Positions 5,455 through 23,442 of a stretch of DNA of 38,607 nucleotides are shown here, in pieces. The number at the start of each line of letters is the position of its first letter. Position 1 is the stretch's first letter. Location: NCBI GenBank assembly GCA_002731275.1, contig PCBK01000087.1, positions 1-38,607 on the forward strand, given 5' to 3'. Origin of the DNA: Deltaproteobacteria bacterium. Its GTDB lineage: Bacteria; Myxococcota_C; UBA6777. The notes beneath the pieces were generated by a model. The model worked only from the letters and a program-made list of their open reading frames with translations, was not told the DNA's origin and searched no databases. The position numbers and the translations under genes are program-made.

Positions 5455-5490
5455 AGCGCCTTGGATACGAAAGAAGAAAGGTCCACAAAG

Positions 5491-8400
5491 ATGAGCCACA
5501 ATCCACTTGTGCCTTCCTATATCGCCGAACAGGACGCTCTTGGCCATGGCCACGGTGTGTTGAAGGCGACGACACAATTTGTCGATATCTCAGGGTTTAC
5601 GCGCCTGACCGAGAAGCTGATGGAGCACGGAAAAGAAGGCGCAGAGGTCCTCGCACAGACCTTGCAATTCAACTTTGATCCTCTCGTTCGCGCGGTGAAG
5701 CAAGCCGGAGGTTTTATCACAGGTTTCGCTGGAGACGCCTTCACCGCGGTCTATCCCCACGAAGAGGCAACACCCGTCGCGCTACGTGTGTTGCAAGCCT
5801 CTGTAAAAATGCAGGACTTTTTTACCCAACATGGCTTGATCGAGAACCAATATGGTTCTTTCCAATTTGCCGTTAAGATCGGGTTGTCATGGGGAGACGT
5901 CGAGTGGGACATTATCGAGACCGCTGAAGACACCACCACGTATACCTTCTACGGAGAGGGGATTGATGGTTGTGCTGACTCCGAAAAACATGCGGAGAAG
6001 GGAGATATCATCTATGACTCTTCTTTCGCAGGGCAGATCGGAGCGTACGCCTGTGAGCTCCTTGAAGGTGGGTATCGGCGTTTTACGGGGAACTTTTCGT
6101 CATATCTTCCTGCTGTTGTGCAGTCTACGCCGCAAGGTGACGGGGCGCGTTTTGTGCCTGAAGAGATCGCGAACTTCCCTCGCACAGGTGAATTTCGACG
6201 TGTCGCCGTGGTGTTTTTGTCCTTTGATGAACTGCCGTCATTGACGGAGTTAGGCCGGTATCTGCAGCGAGAACTCAATCGGTTTGGTGGGACATTTACG
6301 CGCTTCGACTTTGGTGACAAGGGGGGCAATTGTCTGATGTTCTTTGGTGCCCCGACAGGGCACGAGAATGATGAAGAGCGCGCTGTAGAGTTTGCCTTAC
6401 AATTGATGGATGATCTTGGGGACACCTTCAACATGCGCGCTGGGATCACGCAAAATATCATGTATGTTGGGTTTAACGGTGGTGAGGAGCGTTACGAGTT
6501 TGCGTGTTTGGGGCGGGCTGTGACGATGGCAGCTCGTTTGATGATGAAGGCGGAGTGGGGCGAGCTACGTTGTGGTCCACGGATTTACCAGCGCACACAG
6601 GAGATGTTTACCTTTGCCTCGATCGGCGCAAAGCCCCTCAAAGGGTTCGCGGAGCCTGTGCCTTTGTACTTGGCCAAAGGGCGAAAGAGGCGAGAGGATA
6701 AAGAGCTCGCGTCTATCGCGATGGTGGGACGAGAGGGGGAGCTTCGTCAATTGACGCGAGGGCTCTCTGGGATCTTTTCGGGTCGCGCGGCTGGTTTGTT
6801 CTATGTCGATGGTGAGGCTGGTTTGGGGAAGAGTTATCTCGTCGCGAGCAGTCGCAAGACTTTGATCGAAGCTCGTGGAAGAGAAGCATTCACGTGGCTG
6901 CTTGCGCCAACACACCAAACATTGCGAAGTCCATTTCATCCTTTTATATATGCACTTCGGACATTTGCAGGGCTTGAGCCATCACAGACGAAGGAGGAAC
7001 AGCAGGCCCGCTTTGACGAAGCGATGACCTCGTTAAAGCGTTCACTGCCACAGGAGGCGGCTGCGCTGGCTGGTGAGTTGGTGCGTGTTGATTCGTTTCT
7101 CGCGGCGTTGTTGGGTCTTCAAGTCGAAGGTTCATTGTACGAGCAATTGGAGCCAAGACTTCGTTTTTCGAACACGTTGTCAGCCATTACATCGTGGGTA
7201 CAGGCGCTCGCGTGGGGGCGTCCTCTAATCCTTCAGCTTGAAGATGGCCATTGGCTCGATGACGCGTCCATTCAAGCGTTGCAGATGTTGTTGCAGCGCA
7301 GTTTGTCTTTGCCTATCGCTGTTGTGATGACCAATCGCTTTCGCGATGACGGGACGTCATTTCGCCTCGCCCTTGATGCGTCTGTTCCTGTCGTGCAAAT
7401 CGACTTGAATCGACTCACTCGAATGGGGTTACGTGGGATCGCTGAGGCACAATTGGGGCAGGCGGTCCACGATGATCTCGTGACCTTGCTCGAAGAGAAA
7501 GCCCACGGTAATCCATTGTTTGCCGATCAGATAGTGGGGTATCTCAAGGAACAAGGCGCGCTTCAAGAGGTGGATGGTTTGCTCGCGCCTTTGCAGACGG
7601 GGGTGATCTTGCCAGAGGAGGTGTCATCTGTGTTGATTGCGCGACTGGATCGGCTCGAACCACAGATCAAAGACATCGTACAGGTCGCGTCTATTTTGGG
7701 GCGACAGTTTGGGACGGAGATCCTCAAGGCGATGCTCGCTGATCCTGCGAGTTTTCGCGATATGCTCGAAGGCGCTGCACATGTGGGGATCTGGAAGAAG
7801 AGTCGCTTGAGTGTGTATTACTTTGTCCATGCGTTGATGCGGGACGCGGCGTATGACATGCAAGCCCGGGCGCGGCTTCGAGAGCTTCATAAGCGCGCCG
7901 CCGAGGTGTTTGAAGTCCGGCCCCATGTCTCTGGTGTATATGCGGAGTTGGCGTATCACTACGAGCAAGCGAACGTGATCGACAAGGCGCTGTACTATCT
8001 CGAAAAGGCTGGCGATGAGGCGAGGGACAACTACCAACAGCAGGATGCCTTGGGGTTCTATGAGCGGATGCTCGAACATATGCCTGAGGCTGGAGAGATG
8101 GCGCGGCGTGTGTTTCTGTCTTTTGCGCAGATTATGCAGCTCTTAGGGCGGATTGATGAAGGCCTTGATTATTGTGAGAGGGCCGCAAAGGCGCTCGATG
8201 AACCTGCACCCAAGGTCGCGTACCAGAAGGCATTTCTGATCCAGATGCAGGGCAAATTTGACGACTCATACGCGCTGATCGAGGAGGCGATGCAGTTGGC
8301 TCATGAACTCGGCGACAAGGAGTGGGAAGCGCGTTGTCTGAATTCTTTGGGGGGATTGTCTTTGTACAAGGGAGATGTTGAGGGAGGTAAGCAAAAGCTC

Positions 8401-8970
8401 GAACAGAGTATGCACATCGCACATGAGGCTGGTTTCCCTGAGATCGAGGTGAAGGCGTTGAGCAATATGGCAGGTGTGGCGCTGGCGTTGCAGAAGTTCG
8501 ATGAGGCTGGGGAGTTGTTGCTGCAGAGTTTGGAGATCGCGCGACAATTAAAAGATCGTTGGACGGAGTTCTTGTCTTTGGGGAACCTTGGGGAGCTGCG
8601 TTTGAAGCAAGGAGAGCCGGAGAAAGCGCTTGCGTTTTTGGAGTCTTCCAAAAAGACGGGGGAGGAGATTGGCTCGAAAAATGCGGCATTTCTTGCACAT
8701 TATGCGGCCGCGTTGTCTGCACTTGGGCGTTGGGATGAGGCGAGACTGGTGTGTGGTGAAGCGGAGGAGATTGCCCGTGATTCTGGAAACGTGAAGCACA
8801 TCGTCAGTGTGCTGCTCGTCTCATCGGAGATCCACATTCAAACAGGCGACGCAGACGCGGCGCAGCAGGTCTTACATGAAGCGCTTACACTCGCGACCTC
8901 ATCTGGCCAAAAACCTCTTGAGGACAAGGTCCGCGATGTCCTCGCAAAGATGGATGATGACAGCGAGTGA
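5491..8970 (+). CDS. sAC-like protein: two cyclase-like domains, P-loop ATPase, TPRs
   Basis: About 1159 residues from ATG 5491, preceded by GAAAGAAGAAAGG; an in-frame TTG at 5461 lacks such a site. Domain order matches eukaryotic soluble adenylyl cyclase. Class III cyclase domain 1 has FVDISGFT with metal ligand D32 and GFAGDAF with D82. Cyclase domain 2 (about 235-400) keeps FGDKGG but has FLSFDE where the first metal Asp is expected. The usual VNxAAR motif is altered in both: GIDGCADSEKHA in domain 1 and AVTMAARL in domain 2. Then come Walker A GEAGLGKS (441-448), a Walker B-like LILQLEDGHWLDD near 579-591, and TPR-type helices from about 800 to the end. It is cytoplasmic. It may make cAMP, or be a non-catalytic nucleotide-regulated scaffold. 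It sits 36 bases behind the GH116 gene. Confidence 0.85.
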   Translation: MSHNPLVPSYIAEQDALGHGHGVLKATTQFVDISGFTRLTEKLMEHGKEGAEVLAQTLQFNFDPLVRAVKQAGGFITGFAGDAFTAVYPHEEATPVALRVLQASVKMQDFFTQHGLIENQYGSFQFAVKIGLSWGDVEWDIIETAEDTTTYTFYGEGIDGCADSEKHAEKGDIIYDSSFAGQIGAYACELLEGGYRRFTGNFSSYLPAVVQSTPQGDGARFVPEEIANFPRTGEFRRVAVVFLSFDELPSLTELGRYLQRELNRFGGTFTRFDFGDKGGNCLMFFGAPTGHENDEERAVEFALQLMDDLGDTFNMRAGITQNIMYVGFNGGEERYEFACLGRAVTMAARLMMKAEWGELRCGPRIYQRTQEMFTFASIGAKPLKGFAEPVPLYLAKGRKRREDKELASIAMVGREGELRQLTRGLSGIFSGRAAGLFYVDGEAGLGKSYLVASSRKTLIEARGREAFTWLLAPTHQTLRSPFHPFIYALRTFAGLEPSQTKEEQQARFDEAMTSLKRSLPQEAAALAGELVRVDSFLAALLGLQVEGSLYEQLEPRLRFSNTLSAITSWVQALAWGRPLILQLEDGHWLDDASIQALQMLLQRSLSLPIAVVMTNRFRDDGTSFRLALDASVPVVQIDLNRLTRMGLRGIAEAQLGQAVHDDLVTLLEEKAHGNPLFADQIVGYLKEQGALQEVDGLLAPLQTGVILPEEVSSVLIARLDRLEPQIKDIVQVASILGRQFGTEILKAMLADPASFRDMLEGAAHVGIWKKSRLSVYYFVHALMRDAAYDMQARARLRELHKRAAEVFEVRPHVSGVYAELAYHYEQANVIDKALYYLEKAGDEARDNYQQQDALGFYERMLEHMPEAGEMARRVFLSFAQIMQLLGRIDEGLDYCERAAKALDEPAPKVAYQKAFLIQMQGKFDDSYALIEEAMQLAHELGDKEWEARCLNSLGGLSLYKGDVEGGKQKLEQSMHIAHEAGFPEIEVKALSNMAGVALALQKFDEAGELLLQSLEIARQLKDRWTEFLSLGNLGELRLKQGEPEKALAFLESSKKTGEEIGSKNAAFLAHYAAALSALGRWDEARLVCGEAEEIARDSGNVKHIVSVLLVSSEIHIQTGDADAAQQVLHEALTLATSSGQKPLEDKVRDVLAKMDDDSE

Positions 8971-9350: not shown

Positions 9351-10343
9351 ATGAGTCGTTTGATTTTGGGTTTATCTTTTGCAATGTGTGTCAGTTTGTT
9401 TCACGCACCTGCAGCGCACGCACGTCGTGCGCCACGTATCTGCTTGAAAGCCTCTGCTGTCGCAAGGCAGCTCAAAGCAGCGAAGACACAGGCTCTTCGG
9501 TATGCGCGGTTGTTTGAACGGATGCGTAAGGGAACGTACAAGTCCCACCACGGTTCCGCGCGTACTTTGCAGGGACCGATCATGAGAAAGTTCGCCGATC
9601 ACTTCAAAAAACAAAATATCTACTCACAGTGGAGCAGCTACAAATTGCGCCGCTCTACACTCAACTTTACAAAGGGTAAGTTTACTGCGTTCAAACTTGA
9701 TCTCAGCAAGTTGAACTCCAAAGGTTTTACCCTTGATGGTTTGAAGTCCTCAGGGTGGAAGTTCAAAAAAAGCGCAGGATTGATGCGGCGTGACGAGGAC
9801 ACAGCGCCTTGTCTCGTCAAGAAGAAAATAAGCGCTGCATCGCTCACCAATCTCACCAGAAAATACAGTGCATCTAAACTCCAAGGGATGTACAAGATGA
9901 AGACCTTCCTCAACGCACTCCGTGCGGCGCAGTTGAGTAACTCGATTAACAAGACAAGGACGGCCATCGCGACAGCCAAAAAGACGCTGCGTTATGCGAG
10001 AAAAGCGCGCTACTACAAGCGCAAAGTCCAACGTCTCAATCGTCTGCTGAAGGTGCTCGCGCGTTCTTGTTCGCGTATGCTCAAAAGGAAGCGCAAGCGT
10101 GGTGCGCTTGATCGTACATCCCTTGAAAAGGGCACAACAGTCGCTTCACATGACATCGAAGAAGATGAAGGTATTTGTTCATCCGAGTTTGCATTTGCGG
10201 ATGACACTTCGAGCGCTGATTCTGCGTTGTCTGGTCCGACATTGGGCGCTGGCTTTGAGATCAACTTCCAGACTGTGAACGATATGTTGCAGACGGATGA
10301 GGCCTACAACTCTGGTGCAGAGTCCGCACTTGGTGCCATGTAA
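9351..10343 (+). CDS. Exported basic protein of unknown function
   Basis: Start ATG 9351, with AGAGGAGAGG just upstream. The longer reading from 9300 would bury a good signal peptide. The first 24 residues are a clear type I signal sequence (hydrophobic LILGLSFAMCVSLF core, cleavage after AHA), so the roughly 306-residue mature protein should reach the periplasm or beyond. The body is rich in Lys and Arg with long predicted helices and four or so scattered Cys. The last 60 residues turn acidic (DIEEDEG, FADDTSSADS). No membrane segment follows the signal. I do not recognise a family. Intervals of 380 bases before and 230 after suggest it is transcribed alone. Confidence 0.7.
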   Translation: MSRLILGLSFAMCVSLFHAPAAHARRAPRICLKASAVARQLKAAKTQALRYARLFERMRKGTYKSHHGSARTLQGPIMRKFADHFKKQNIYSQWSSYKLRRSTLNFTKGKFTAFKLDLSKLNSKGFTLDGLKSSGWKFKKSAGLMRRDEDTAPCLVKKKISAASLTNLTRKYSASKLQGMYKMKTFLNALRAAQLSNSINKTRTAIATAKKTLRYARKARYYKRKVQRLNRLLKVLARSCSRMLKRKRKRGALDRTSLEKGTTVASHDIEEDEGICSSEFAFADDTSSADSALSGPTLGAGFEINFQTVNDMLQTDEAYNSGAESALGAM

Positions 10344-10499
10344 GACACTCCCAAAGCTGCCACAAACGCTTCCTTTTCCTTTCTTTCCAACACACCTCTC
10401 CTCTTTGGTTTGCCTTCACACTTTCTCAATTTGTAGCACTTTTCGTCCTTTTGTGATTTGCCCTTCCTGTGGTGCGGGAGTTGTGGTATACATGCAAGC

Positions 10500-10530
10500 T
10501 GTCTTGGTAAGGTGGCCAAGACACATTTTT
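10500..10530 (+). terminator. Hairpin plus T-run ahead of the MscS gene
   Basis: TGTCTTGG (10500-10507) and CCAAGACA (10516-10523) form a perfect 8-bp stem around TAAGGTGG and are followed by CATTTTT. This fits an intrinsic terminator for the upstream exported-protein gene. Because it lies only about 43 bases before the channel start, and a -10-like TATACA lies at 10487-10492, it could instead act as a leader attenuator. The stem is not very GC-rich, so termination strength is uncertain. Confidence 0.4.
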
Positions 10531-10572
10531 GCAGGTCATTGCAGAGAAATCACAGCATTTTTGGAGTATTTG

Positions 10573-12060
10573 ATGCGGAGTCTCAAGAGACTACTTCTGC
10601 CCCTTGTCGTCTTCCTGGCTTTTTTGGGGATTGCGTACTATATGCATGGTTCGTTATCTTCGTTTCGCTCGGAGGCGTTTGACCAAACGCAGAGAATTTT
10701 TTCGTACATCCTCCAAGTGGGGATCTGGTTGTCTGCGGCCTATTTTTTGAACAGGTTGGTGCACGTCTTCATTTGGGATGGCATTGTCTCGGGGGTGTTC
10801 TCTGGTGCGACACCAAGGCTGCTGAAGGATGTTGTTGGCTTTGTGATATATATGGTCGCGATCACGGGGATTGTGGGCTTTGTGTTCAACCGCTCAGTCA
10901 CCGGGATCTGGGCGACATCGGGCGCGATTGGGTTGATCTTGGGTTTTGCGCTGCGCTCGATCATTCTGGATGTCTTCACAGGTTTGGCTATCAACATCGA
11001 CCGTCCCTACAAGATAGGCGATTGGATTATGGTGCATGGTGGTCGTCCTGAGCTTCATATCATCGGCAGCGTGAAGGAGATCAACTGGCGGACGACGCGG
11101 ATCACGACCAAAGATGGGAATGTGCTCATTGTCCCCAACAGTATGATGGGGATGACGATGATCACCAACTTTATGGTGCCAGACGTCCACAACCGCCATG
11201 AGATCTTCTTTACACTGGATTTTTCGGTCCCACCTGATCAAGTTTTACGTATCTTGAACGCCGCGACAAAGGCCGTCTGTACCGAAGATGGACTGAAGGC
11301 TCCTTTGCTCTATCCCAAACCAAAGATCCGCATCATTCGTGCGACGCCGATGGGGGTTGAATACCGCGTACGTTATTGGACCATCCCCAAACATGTATCT
11401 CCAGGGAAAGCTCGTCACATCGTGACAAAGAGTATCCTGGAGCACTTGCAACAGGCGGGCTTGACGCTCGCTTACCCCAAGCAAGATGTGTATCACGAGA
11501 AGATGCCTGTTCGCCAACTCAACTCCCAATCGGTTGAAGACCGTATGCGCTTACTCTCACGGATTGAGCTCTTTGAGAAGCTCTCCAAGGAAGATCTCGA
11601 TCTGCTCGCGACGTCGATGGAGCGGCGATTCTTTGAGGAGAAAGAGGTCTTGATCAAGCGAGGAGACAGTGGGGATTCGATGTTCATCCTCGTTGAAGGT
11701 TTGCTCGAAGTGTTTGCTGATATCCACGGTAATGGAGAAGAGGTGAAGGTCGCGCAGATGGTGCCTGGTCACTTCTTTGGTGAGATGTCGCTGTTAACAG
11801 GAGAGCCACGCTCTGCGACGATTCAGGCATCGACAGACATCATCGCGTACGAGATCACAAAGGAAAATATCAGCATCTTGTTCGGGCGTCGGCCAGAGAT
11901 TGCCGAGAGCATCAGCGAGACCGTCGCGCGTCGTAAGATGAGAGATGTCGAAAAGCGGACCGATATGACGAATGAAGAGAAGGACGAGCAGGCGAGCAGC
12001 TTCTCCACACAAATGCTCAGCAAGATGAAGTCATTTTTTGGGGTGTTTGGGGAAAAGTAA
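10573..12060 (+). CDS. MscS-type channel fused to a cyclic-nucleotide-binding domain
   Basis: 495 residues from ATG 10573 with GGAG at 10563-10566; the frame is open further upstream but has no better start. Hydrophobic helices lie near 6-24, 43-66 and 85-106. The pore-lining helix TM3 of the MscS family follows (about 108-140, GAIGLILGFALRSI). The beta domain includes IDRPYKIGDWI and ITTKDGNVLIVPNS. From about 330 to 450 is a cNMP-binding fold with the phosphate-binding cassette FGEMSLLTGEPRSATI, retaining the Arg that contacts the cyclic phosphate. It should be an inner-membrane channel gated by tension, nucleotide or both. The last 30 bases overlap the end of the convergent TPR gene. It may respond to the cyclase-like protein encoded 1.6 kb upstream. 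Confidence 0.9.
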   Translation: MRSLKRLLLPLVVFLAFLGIAYYMHGSLSSFRSEAFDQTQRIFSYILQVGIWLSAAYFLNRLVHVFIWDGIVSGVFSGATPRLLKDVVGFVIYMVAITGIVGFVFNRSVTGIWATSGAIGLILGFALRSIILDVFTGLAINIDRPYKIGDWIMVHGGRPELHIIGSVKEINWRTTRITTKDGNVLIVPNSMMGMTMITNFMVPDVHNRHEIFFTLDFSVPPDQVLRILNAATKAVCTEDGLKAPLLYPKPKIRIIRATPMGVEYRVRYWTIPKHVSPGKARHIVTKSILEHLQQAGLTLAYPKQDVYHEKMPVRQLNSQSVEDRMRLLSRIELFEKLSKEDLDLLATSMERRFFEEKEVLIKRGDSGDSMFILVEGLLEVFADIHGNGEEVKVAQMVPGHFFGEMSLLTGEPRSATIQASTDIIAYEITKENISILFGRRPEIAESISETVARRKMRDVEKRTDMTNEEKDEQASSFSTQMLSKMKSFFGVFGEK

Positions 12061-19700: not shown

Positions 19701-20963
19701 TTGGTAAACGTCACATCCGAAGTTGGTAAGCTCAAGCGAGTGTTGGTGCATGAGCCTGGTCGCGAAGTCGATCAGATGACGCCCTCTATGATGGAGGAGT
19801 TGTTATTTGATGATATCCTCGACGGAGAAGGTGCGAGAAGCGAGCATGGGCTGTTTCGACGCACTATGCAGCTGCTTGGGATTGAAGTGTTGGAGAGCCA
19901 GCAGCTGTTGCTCGAATCCCTGCGACAAGAAGGCGCTCTCGAATGGTTTTGGAATGTGTATGCGGGGCGACTTCCCGAAAAAGTCTACACGCAGTTGAAA
20001 GAGCTTGAGGTCGAGGGGCTCGTCAATGCGCTTGTCCATGGTGTCAGGCGAAAGGGCAACAGCGCTGATTTTAAAGATCACGACTTGTTCGATGTCCACC
20101 CAATCCCCAACTGGTGTTTCCAGCGTGATCCCCAGGTTGTGATCGGCAATGGCGTTTTGTTTTGCTCCATGGCGACAAAGGCGCGTCGGCGTGAGACGCT
20201 GCTCAGTCGCTTGATCTTTCGCTTTCATCCCAGCCTCCAAGGGACACCCATCCTCTTTGATGCCTTTGAAGAGGATAAAAAACAGCCCATCTTCTTGGGA
20301 CGTGAGCACCTTCATATCGAAGGGGGTGATCTGCTCGTGCTGTCCAAAGACGTTGTCGCTGTCGGATACTCCGAGCGCACAAATGTCTTGGCGATTCAGT
20401 ATCTCGCGAGAGCCCTCGCACAGATGGAAGACGGACCCAAGTATCTCGTCGTTGTAGAGATCCCGAAGAAGCGGGCATACATGCACCTTGATACGATCAT
20501 GACACCTGTTGATCACGACGCCTGTCTTGTCTATCCCGCGGCGATTATGCCTGGTGGCAGTGAAGAGGCGACCGCGTATGAGTTTGATCTACATGCGAGT
20601 GAATTGACGCCTTCAATGAGGGGCAACGTGTTGCAACTTCTTGCGCGGCGTGGACTCGATTACGAGCCCATTTTGTGTGGAGGGACAGATCCCCTCCATC
20701 AACAACGTGAGCAGTGGACGGATGGTGCGAATACATTCACTCTCGCGCCAGGAATGATCACGCTTTACGACCGCAACCGTGTGACGGCAGATGAACTGAT
20801 CAAGCACGGATTTCGTATTGTCTCCGCAGAAGATCTCGTCCTCGGCCGGGCTGAAGCGGATCTCAACAAACAAGAACGTGTTTGTATTATGTTACCCAGT
20901 CATGAGATCTCGCGTGCACGGGGTGGTCCCCACTGCCTGACACATCCCCTTGAACGATTCTAG
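19701..20963 (+). CDS. arcA: Arginine deiminase
   Basis: 420 residues, normal for arginine deiminase, which converts arginine to citrulline and ammonia in the cytoplasm. Family landmarks in order: VLVHEPGREVDQMTP near the N-terminus, LLFDDIL (35-41), PNWCFQRDP (usual form PNLYFTRDP), HIEGGDLLVL, MHLDTIMTPVD with the catalytic His, and GGPHCLTHPLER with nucleophile C412 near the end. Start is TTG 19701 with AGGAG six bases upstream. No ornithine carbamoyltransferase, carbamate kinase or antiporter gene is beside it, so this is not a standard arc operon; citrulline may feed other metabolism. It follows the small membrane protein closely and ends 48 bases before the PIN-like gene. Confidence 0.92.
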   Translation: MVNVTSEVGKLKRVLVHEPGREVDQMTPSMMEELLFDDILDGEGARSEHGLFRRTMQLLGIEVLESQQLLLESLRQEGALEWFWNVYAGRLPEKVYTQLKELEVEGLVNALVHGVRRKGNSADFKDHDLFDVHPIPNWCFQRDPQVVIGNGVLFCSMATKARRRETLLSRLIFRFHPSLQGTPILFDAFEEDKKQPIFLGREHLHIEGGDLLVLSKDVVAVGYSERTNVLAIQYLARALAQMEDGPKYLVVVEIPKKRAYMHLDTIMTPVDHDACLVYPAAIMPGGSEEATAYEFDLHASELTPSMRGNVLQLLARRGLDYEPILCGGTDPLHQQREQWTDGANTFTLAPGMITLYDRNRVTADELIKHGFRIVSAEDLVLGRAEADLNKQERVCIMLPSHEISRARGGPHCLTHPLERF

Positions 20964-21011: not shown

Positions 21012-21725
21012 ATGAACAGATCGTTGATGTATCTCGACCAGAATTACGCTTCCAGGATATCGAAATTCCTGATCGGTGACGACGGTCATGCACACTTTGG
21101 TCTGTTACACGACGTTCTCACCCAATCCGATATCTGTATCCCACCAAGTCCCTTCCACGTCCTCGAATTGCTCGACGGCTATCTCAAGCCTTCCTTCCAA
21201 CAACTGTACGGTCATTTTTCGAGAGGCTACTGGGTCCGCCACTGGCAGGACGTGGTGAAGCGACAGGCCATTCATCAACGCGTGGACATCGAAGACTTTT
21301 TGACCACTGAGGGAGATTGGGAGAGTGCGGCTGAGACAGCTCCCCTCACGGACATCGTGACGCTCGCATGGAATGGTTCATTCGTCGAGCGAAAACATGC
21401 GATCACGACGATGTTGCAGCAGCGCCTGCAACCTTTGATCGGGGAGGTGGAGACGCCATTTGTGCGGATTCTTTCCGGTTTGTTGACATTTCGTAGTTTG
21501 AACGAAGAGCGACAGGCGCGAGATTCAGATTTGATCGACTTGTTGATGGCGGCGACAGTTCGTCCGTATGTTCAATGGTTATGTACAGACCGTTTTATGA
21601 GAGAAGGGCTTGAGAAGATTGGAGAAGGCGAAGGGGTTTTCTCTGGTCGCCGACAGGAGGTGCATGTGTTGATCCAGCGATTTGCTCCAGGGACATCCTC
21701 AGTGGGAGGAGCTCATGGAGTATAA
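21012..21725 (+). CDS. Uncharacterised protein, possible PIN-like fold
   Basis: 237 residues from ATG 21012 with AGGAAA upstream. The N-terminus MYLDQN (residues 6-11) puts an acidic residue at the end of a first beta strand. The segment near 168-200 (ARDSDLIDLLMAATVRPYVQ followed by WLCTDRFM) gives D..D...A and TDR spacing, resembling the acidic residues of PIN-like nucleases. This is a by-eye resemblance and no family could be named. If it holds, it would be a metal-dependent RNase or an inactive relative. No signal peptide or membrane helix. The stop overlaps the start of the vault-like gene (ATG 21715) by 11 bases, so the two are probably translationally coupled and act together. Confidence 0.65.
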   Translation: MNRSLMYLDQNYASRISKFLIGDDGHAHFGLLHDVLTQSDICIPPSPFHVLELLDGYLKPSFQQLYGHFSRGYWVRHWQDVVKRQAIHQRVDIEDFLTTEGDWESAAETAPLTDIVTLAWNGSFVERKHAITTMLQQRLQPLIGEVETPFVRILSGLLTFRSLNEERQARDSDLIDLLMAATVRPYVQWLCTDRFMREGLEKIGEGEGVFSGRRQEVHVLIQRFAPGTSSVGGAHGV

Positions 21726-23442
21726 AATGATGAAGAAGTCCGGTGCGTTGCAGGAAGGACTTCCCAATCGAAGTAAAACGAAGCGCAAAGTGCGGCCGAT
21801 GCGGTCGATCTCATCTGCGTCCAATTCACTCCCAATCCAGCAGCAAGTACAAAATTTTTCGGACTTTGGGGAAGAACAGGCGCAGGGGATCTTGAGTGAG
21901 CTGGAGATCGACTCTCTTTTGAATGACAATGTCGTCAATTTTCCGTCGAGTGGACCAGTTGGAGGGGTGCAGAGTATGTCTCCTGCGTTTGCCCAACAAC
22001 AGGCCGATACGCCACCGGGAGGTGGTGACGATGCAGGAGGCGGGGGCGCTGAGCACCCCGATCGCAGGCGCATGTTGAATATGCGCGGTAGACCTATCCA
22101 ACGCAAACCGAATCAACTCAAACACACGGGGCATTTGAATCAAATGGGCTTATTTTCCTATACCGTTTCCGAAGGCCAGCGGGTCTTGATGATCGACAAA
22201 AATGGGCAGGGGAAGATCCTCGACGGTCCTTGCCGTGTGTGGCGTTGGGGAAAACGCATCAGCCACTTGATGCAATATGCAGCCTACCCTGGTGAGTTTC
22301 TGATCGTTCGACACCTCGATGGTTCACAGGAGCACATGCACGGTCCCGCGAAGATCTGGTTTGACCCTCGTATTCACGCTGATATCCAAAAAGAAGACGC
22401 ACTCCAACTCGCAGCAAAAGAGGCTGTTGTCGTCTATTCCCGAAACGAGGGGGACGAAGCCGAAGAGGAGAGCGTGCAGCGGCGGATTGTGATGGGGCCA
22501 GAAGTTTTTGCTCCTCGTCCTGGCGAGTGGCTGCACACATTTTGTTGGCATGGGACGAAGGGGGACGGTTACAAAAAGATCCCGGGTGCTTTGGTTTTTC
22601 AGAAGCTGTGGTTGATGCCCGATCAAATGTACCATGACGTCGAAGATGTGCGAACGGCTGATGATGTCGTCTTGACCATTCGTTTGATGTTGTTCTTTGA
22701 GCTGAAGGACGTCGAACGAATGCTCGATGAGACACACGACCCCATCGGGGATTTTATCAACGCAGCGAGCTCAGACGTGCTCGACCTCGTCGGTCGCTAT
22801 ACGTTCGACGAGTTTAAGACCAAGATCGAGCTGCTCAACGAGATCACGAGTTATCACCAACTCAATACACGCGCTGAGCAGGTGGGTTATCGTATCAACA
22901 AAGTTGTGTACAGGGGATATTCGACGACAGCAGCGCTTCAGTCGATGCATGGTCAGGCGATAGAGGCGAGGACACGTCTCAAGCTAGAGCGTGAGACGGA
23001 GCGTCAGGCCCAAGAGTTGAGTGACTTCAAGCAACAGCGTGAATTCGAGCGCGCAGGGAAGTCGCGAAATGAGAAGACGCACGAGGTTAAGGCAGAGCTC
23101 GAATTGCAAAGACAACGACAATTGCAAGAGATTGAGTTTCGCGAAAAGCAGTGGCAGACAGAGCAAGAGCAGACCGAGAAGAAGCTCGCGCGTGCGTTTG
23201 AGCAGAGAAAGAGAGAGTGGGAGTTGTTGCACGAGCAAAGGCGCCAGGATGCGGAGTTTGCGTTGGAGCAAAAGCGCAAGCTGCACGAGGCTGAGGCGGC
23301 CTATCTGACCCAGCTCAAGGAGATGGGCGTCGATTTGACCTCCTATCTTACACAACATCGTGCAGACCAAGTGATCGAGCTACGTGGTCAGGGAGAGGGA
23401 GTCTCACCACACCTTCACGTTGAGCCAAGCAACCAACGCTGA
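21715..23442 (+). CDS. Major-vault-protein-like / SPFH-type protein
   Basis: 575 residues from ATG 21715, with GGAGGA at 21705-21710; ATG 21727 is an alternative. A low-complexity, Gly-rich N-terminus (1-140) precedes three beta repeats of about 40 residues, each with a GP turn: ILDGPCRVW (168-176), HMHGPAKIWFDP (207-218) and IVMGPEVFAPRPGEWLH (258-274). These resemble the repeats of eukaryotic major vault protein. Residues 295-410 resemble the SPFH-like shoulder (TADDVVLTIRLMLFFEL, NKVVYRGY). From 415 to 535 is a long Glu/Gln/Arg coiled coil like the vault cap helix, with a short tail. Vault protein has about nine repeats, so this is a shortened version. No signal peptide; likely a cytoplasmic self-assembling ring or shell. 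The assignment rests on pattern, not a computed alignment. Confidence 0.75.
   Translation: MEYKMMKKSGALQEGLPNRSKTKRKVRPMRSISSASNSLPIQQQVQNFSDFGEEQAQGILSELEIDSLLNDNVVNFPSSGPVGGVQSMSPAFAQQQADTPPGGGDDAGGGGAEHPDRRRMLNMRGRPIQRKPNQLKHTGHLNQMGLFSYTVSEGQRVLMIDKNGQGKILDGPCRVWRWGKRISHLMQYAAYPGEFLIVRHLDGSQEHMHGPAKIWFDPRIHADIQKEDALQLAAKEAVVVYSRNEGDEAEEESVQRRIVMGPEVFAPRPGEWLHTFCWHGTKGDGYKKIPGALVFQKLWLMPDQMYHDVEDVRTADDVVLTIRLMLFFELKDVERMLDETHDPIGDFINAASSDVLDLVGRYTFDEFKTKIELLNEITSYHQLNTRAEQVGYRINKVVYRGYSTTAALQSMHGQAIEARTRLKLERETERQAQELSDFKQQREFERAGKSRNEKTHEVKAELELQRQRQLQEIEFREKQWQTEQEQTEKKLARAFEQRKREWELLHEQRRQDAEFALEQKRKLHEAEAAYLTQLKEMGVDLTSYLTQHRADQVIELRGQGEGVSPHLHVEPSNQR

Follow-up and report, generated by a model that had tools for sequence, protein, structure and literature searches.

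The major vault protein (MVP; PF01505, PF17794-17796 and PF11978) consists of about nine wall repeats followed by an SPFH shoulder and a long cap helix, with no membrane anchor. In published work, the first repeat, R1, closes the vault waist, repeats R1-R6 make up the flexible region observed in half vaults, and the SPFH domain and helix build the dome (PMC13347060, PMC13100048); a recent paper regards the MVP domains as found in the vault alone (PMC13100048). SPFH proteins such as stomatin have a single repeat-like SPFH1 unit together with a membrane anchor; what they share with the protein described here is the SPFH fold, the helix after it and the expected domed ring. Here we describe P0001, a short vault-like protein encoded in a 38,607-nucleotide stretch of DNA (the window; contig PCBK01000087.1 of assembly GCA_002731275.1, Deltaproteobacteria bacterium). 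According to its sequence and predicted structure, P0001 joins vault-type repeats with an SPFH domain nearer to that of stomatins, which places its architecture between that of ordinary SPFH rings and that of the vault of eukaryotes. It is best read as a new member of the SPFH/vault superfamily, a vault-like relative rather than a proven vault. The searched open literature describes this family nowhere; subscription literature lay outside that search.

The open reading frame of P0001 is genuine, and its start at 21715 is supported by the agreement of homologous N-termini (MEYKMMKKSGALQEG compared with MKYEMMQTTGALQEG and others). An AlphaFold2 model made from the family alignment contains β-strands at residues 148-299, followed by the SPFH α/β fold (303-404) and a single helix (406-537). 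Between residue 145 and about residue 450, most predicted local distance difference test (pLDDT) scores are 85-97. A sequence-only reading of the window had proposed three GP-turn β-repeats, and these were confirmed: G171-P172, G210-P211 and G261-P262 are invariant across all 36 aligned homologues, far beyond chance, within the predicted strands. The order it gave, repeats, SPFH domain and long helix as in MVP, agrees with AlphaFold2 and with VIA-align comparison, and the conserved C-terminal tail also falls in MVP order. Its Gly-rich, disordered N-terminus stood in part. Residues 1-134 are predicted to be disordered, given pLDDT values below 50, and have a Gly content of 11%, including a single run of Gly at 102-111, but the Gly-richness is peculiar to P0001; its relatives have other linkers or an MshEN domain.

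The relationship to the vault is carried by the repeats. With the whole model as query, Foldseek placed MVP at ranks 1-12 (E 1e-15 to 1e-10), followed by SPFH proteins at 4e-7, with stomatin and flotillin at about 5e-7. VIA-align matched the whole model to MVP with Z 15.8 over 378 residues (model 145-540 on MVP 320-782); the root mean square deviation of 13 Å is large because long flexible modules, which bend differently, were superposed as one body. The repeats modelled by themselves (residues 141-302; mean pLDDT 88.5) take the vault repeat fold: all of the top 14 Foldseek matches in the PDB were MVP (probability 0.99-1.00), the next match having a probability of 0.13. These repeats superpose on rat MVP 320-520 at 2.9 Å (144 residues, 19% identical). 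By contrast, flotillin, prohibitin, erlin and stomatin each cover just one repeat (~42 residues). Profile comparison by hhalign, using 39 family sequences and 28 bacterial MVPs, matched the family repeats to bacterial MVP repeats (P 1e-7) with a score of 57, against a maximum of 24 in a null of 100 column shuffles. The family repeats gave no match to stomatins in this comparison. Neither of the two outcomes that would have contradicted the sequence-only reading, best matches among ordinary flotillin or stomatin proteins devoid of vault repeats or predicted repeats without the vault β-fold, was observed. Homology to MVP, as the sequence-only reading had suggested, is therefore supported by both the structural and the profile matches, and on sequence and model evidence the repeats of the short family are MVP-type wall repeats.

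Taken alone, the repeats do not decide which MVP repeats they match, since R1-R3 and the last three score equally well against the family; the last three are favoured as the counterpart because of their continuity with the shoulder. Only three repeats are seen in the sequence and model of P0001, compared with about nine in MVP, and the MVP waist repeats R1-R6 have no counterpart. The alternative of an ordinary SPFH protein with a superficial vault likeness is hardly tenable and already largely refuted. No curated Pfam MVP model reaches its cut-off for P0001 or the aligned members, and a single-sequence search of P0001 against PDB sequences returned nothing meaningful, as this alternative would have it, but the repeat-only fold search and the profile comparison single out MVP.

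We consider it probable that P0001 is soluble and cytosolic and serves as the subunit of a half cage resembling the vault, an assembly and a function that we infer. From the published roles of the MVP parts, the dome and the adjoining repeats appear to be kept in P0001 and the waist to be absent. The SPFH domains and cap helices would line up laterally to build a domed ring, with the three repeats forming a short skirt beneath the dome and the conserved C-terminal tail filling or sealing the cap. With no waist interface, the cage would stay an open cup rather than a closed barrel. At the rim of this cup, the disordered N-terminus and the conserved end peptide would hang free and may dock a partner, cargo or a second cup; in most planctomycete members, an MshEN domain would occupy this rim position. 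The most likely function of such a cup would be to enclose or cap macromolecular cargo. A closed mini-vault, made of two cups joined rim to rim by their N-terminal tails, is distinctly improbable. The end peptide at the rim is conserved and MVP half vaults join at the N-terminus, but the MVP closing interface lies in R1 (e.g. Asp39 and Arg42; PMC13347060), which is absent here, and the N-terminal region is variable and predicted to be disordered.

In the half-cage reading, the cap helix would set the size of the ring. The distance from YRGY at the end of the SPFH domain to VDLT in the tail, a count that needs no alignment, is 107, 118, 129 or 140 residues in all 39 members, divergent ones included. 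The corresponding cap-helix lengths are 99, 110, 121 and 132 residues, so that all differences are multiples of 11. A tree of the sequence preceding the helix requires at least nine changes of length. This quantised cap-helix length is a new observation. Gao et al. relate the number of SPFH copies to helix length (CC1) as 0.1782 × CC1 + 10.22 (PMC12624060), by which 11 residues correspond to 1.96 subunits. By extrapolation, each 11-residue step would add about two subunits, with predicted rings of about 28, 30 or 32 subunits in relatives and the largest, about 34, for the 132-residue helix of P0001. Bacterial MVP helices are mostly 147 or 166 residues by a similar count, compared with 99-132 in the short family, and fit the 11-residue step partly (136 and 147 in one group, 166 in another and 137 in a single sequence).

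Several points weigh against the half cage. The sequence of the SPFH domain is nearer to stomatin than to the MVP shoulder (hhalign E 1e-5 for stomatin-type SPFH and 0.03 for the MVP shoulder), so purely SPFH-like behaviour is possible. The SPFH-like shoulder of the sequence-only reading was thus upheld as a predicted fold whose sequence lies closer to stomatins. The copy-number rule rests on a handful of structures and is extrapolated here. An 11-residue periodicity, sought in the helix by hydrophobicity and residue identity, was not seen; the Kyte-Doolittle profile has no peak at 3.67 residues, and the hendecad reading consequently draws on the lengths only. Among the homologue loci compared, no conserved neighbourhood hints at cargo.

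The same SPFH domain, which matches that of mouse stomatin with Z 13.2 at 1.9 Å over 109 residues, is an argument for a scaffold of membrane domains, as flotillin and prohibitin are. The protein would then form a ring on the inner membrane via its rim and organise membrane proteins, with the repeats as a spacer that lifts the dome, and known SPFH cages other than the vault do enclose membrane (PMC13100048). However, none of the 39 members has a transmembrane or strongly hydrophobic segment (no 19-residue window with Kyte-Doolittle hydropathy >1.9), and the place of the usual SPFH anchor is taken by the three repeats and a polar tail or MshEN. We therefore regard a membrane scaffold as unlikely.

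Profile models place the protein in neither known family. MVP_shoulder (PF11978) has no match in P0001, and the best member has E 0.017, under the curated cut-off; matches to two members in whole-genome scans reached 18-19 bits against a cut-off of 25. Band_7 (PF01145) likewise has no match in P0001, with the best member at E 0.02, again under the curated cut-off. Since it has three repeats rather than nine, shoulder scores under the cut-off and an SPFH domain closer to stomatins than to the MVP shoulder, the short protein is not classed as an MVP. It further differs from MVP in its own N- and C-terminal motifs.

P0001 is not the MVP of this genome (G000), which encodes a separate full-length MVP of 848 residues on another contig (contig 4, L046:5670-8213; MVP_shoulder 6e-21, Vault_3 above cut-off). 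This bacterial MVP has the repeat type in common with the 575-residue P0001 in the same cell; pairwise BLAST between the two is insignificant (E 0.04). The bacterial MVP family profile matches rat MVP with E 1e-56. Among carriers of the short protein, MVP is also encoded in 11 of the 13 non-planctomycete genomes and in 0 of the 26 planctomycete genomes, compared with 20 of the 235 Myxococcota genomes sampled as background. Counting Nannocystis as one, four of the five Myxococcota-side lineages have an MVP (binomial P ~2e-4), and carriers G003 and G076 are without it. A weak MVP-profile match in G003 (C26) is a PP2C-like protein and was dropped. Several Nannocystis genomes hold a second, more divergent MVP.

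This co-occurrence suggests a working link between the short protein and MVP, with which planctomycetes dispense. In the Myxococcota-related carriers, the short protein probably acts alongside the full vault of the same genome. A closer association, with the short protein as an accessory subunit built into the MVP vault or capping it, would fit the co-occurrence and the common repeat type. It would also fit the mixing of MVP paralogues within one vault, known for trypanosomes and proposed for Dictyostelium (PMC12547018, PMC13100048). We give this little credence, as the 26 planctomycete carriers, G003 and G076 lack MVP, the genes are not adjacent and lie on different contigs in G000, G002 and G004, and the SPFH domain is unlike the MVP shoulder.

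At least 39 proteins from Planctomycetota and Myxococcota-related bacteria belong to the short vault-like family; a scan of 84,980 genomes with a four-sequence profile gave 39 loci (46-56% identity). Most come from Planctomycetota (Gemmataceae, Singulisphaera, other planctomycetes and Brocadiia) and Myxococcota (Nannocystis and metagenome-assembled genomes), and the closest relatives of P0001 are in metagenome-assembled genomes of Myxococcota or Deltaproteobacteria. The family occurs in 7 of the 149 Planctomycetota genomes sampled. These include three divergent, minimal members of ~420 residues (L160, L161 and L162), a subfamily that begins directly at the first repeat without an N-terminal tail or MshEN. 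A broad survey of 386 genomes found members only within the window's own group, and the remaining matches covered the MshEN part only. Pfam and NCBIfam scans and single-sequence phmmer searches with P0001 gave chance coiled-coil matches only, and no Pfam or NCBIfam family claims the short family. Searches of plasmids, phages and viral contigs found no relatives and thus give no sign that the gene came from a mobile element or a virus.

The C-terminal motif VDLTxYLTxxxADxVIELRGxxxxPHxHLD, or a variant of it, is present in all members. An N-terminal MshEN domain (PF05157; best E 6.6e-19) is found in 21 of the 36 aligned members, including most of the planctomycete ones, and is absent from P0001; this part of the family profile aligns to PilB residues 89-177. 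MshEN otherwise belongs to secretion and pilus ATPases such as PilB and MshE of type II secretion and type IV pilus systems, and its fusion to the vault-like core is seen, for example, at L009, L012, L014 and L018. Unlike in those ATPases, no ATPase domain follows MshEN in this family.

Table 1. Features of the short vault-like gene, in window coordinates.
Feature	Position	Strand	Basis or remark
Coding sequence of short vault-like protein P0001	21715..23442	+	Open frame, 575 aa; homologues of similar length, conserved start
Conserved N-terminal peptide MEYKMMKKSGALQEG	21715..21759	+	Similar form in ~29/39 members
Predicted disordered Gly/Ser/Pro/Gln-rich tail, residues 1-134	21715..22116	+	pLDDT <50
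Vault-type β-repeat 1, residues 145-190, invariant G171-P172	22147..22284	+	Alignment, AlphaFold2 and fold comparison
Vault-type β-repeat 2, residues 191-231, invariant G210-P211	22285..22407	+	Alignment, AlphaFold2 and fold comparison
Vault-type β-repeat 3, residues 232-298, invariant G261-P262 and PGEW	22408..22608	+	Alignment, AlphaFold2 and fold comparison
SPFH (shoulder-like) domain, residues 299-405	22609..22929	+	VIA-align to mouse stomatin; hhalign to stomatin-type SPFH
Long cap helix of 132 residues (406-537; 12 x 11), longest in the family	22930..23325	+	Predicted helix; length series 99/110/121/132
Conserved C-terminal tail GVDLTSYLTQHRADQVIELRG...SPHLHVE	23326..23424	+	Kept in all members

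Upstream, a gene for a 237-residue protein (21012-21725, +) with no Pfam match shares 11 bases with the beginning of the vault-like gene; to the eye, the protein looks PIN-nuclease-like both where it starts (MYLDQNY) and where it ends (LIDLLMAA...LCTDRF). Neither this gene nor the downstream TPR genes are common to other homologue loci; the Gemmataceae homologues lie beside trpB-like and other unrelated genes. Before it lies an arginine-deiminase family protein (19701-20963, +; PF02274, E 9e-71), which scores under the arcA equivalog cut-off. Elsewhere in the window, a 1169-residue protein (5461-8970, +) combines a nucleotide-cyclase domain, an AAA ATPase and TPR repeats, and the product of a nearby gene (10297-12060) joins a mechanosensitive-channel domain to a cyclic-nucleotide-binding one. 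An Rfam scan of the window and the MVP locus at gathering thresholds gave no match, and hence no vault-RNA-like element was found there.

The 11-residue steps offer a sharp prediction, of 28, 30, 32 and 34 subunits in natural length variants, for how the size of an SPFH cage is fixed. Cultivable hosts (Nannocystis, Gemmata, Singulisphaera and Limnoglobus) would make a simpler particle accessible to purification and gene deletion. More tentatively, and as a possibility we hold to be less than even, the short family may be a surviving intermediate of vault evolution. Soluble SPFH cages would have passed from one repeat-like unit to three, as in the short family, and then to nine, as in MVP, within bacteria and before the eukaryotic vault, with ring size set digitally by 11-residue units of the cap helix worth two subunits each. 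A smaller, widespread bacterial relative bears on two questions about the vault, its function and its origin.
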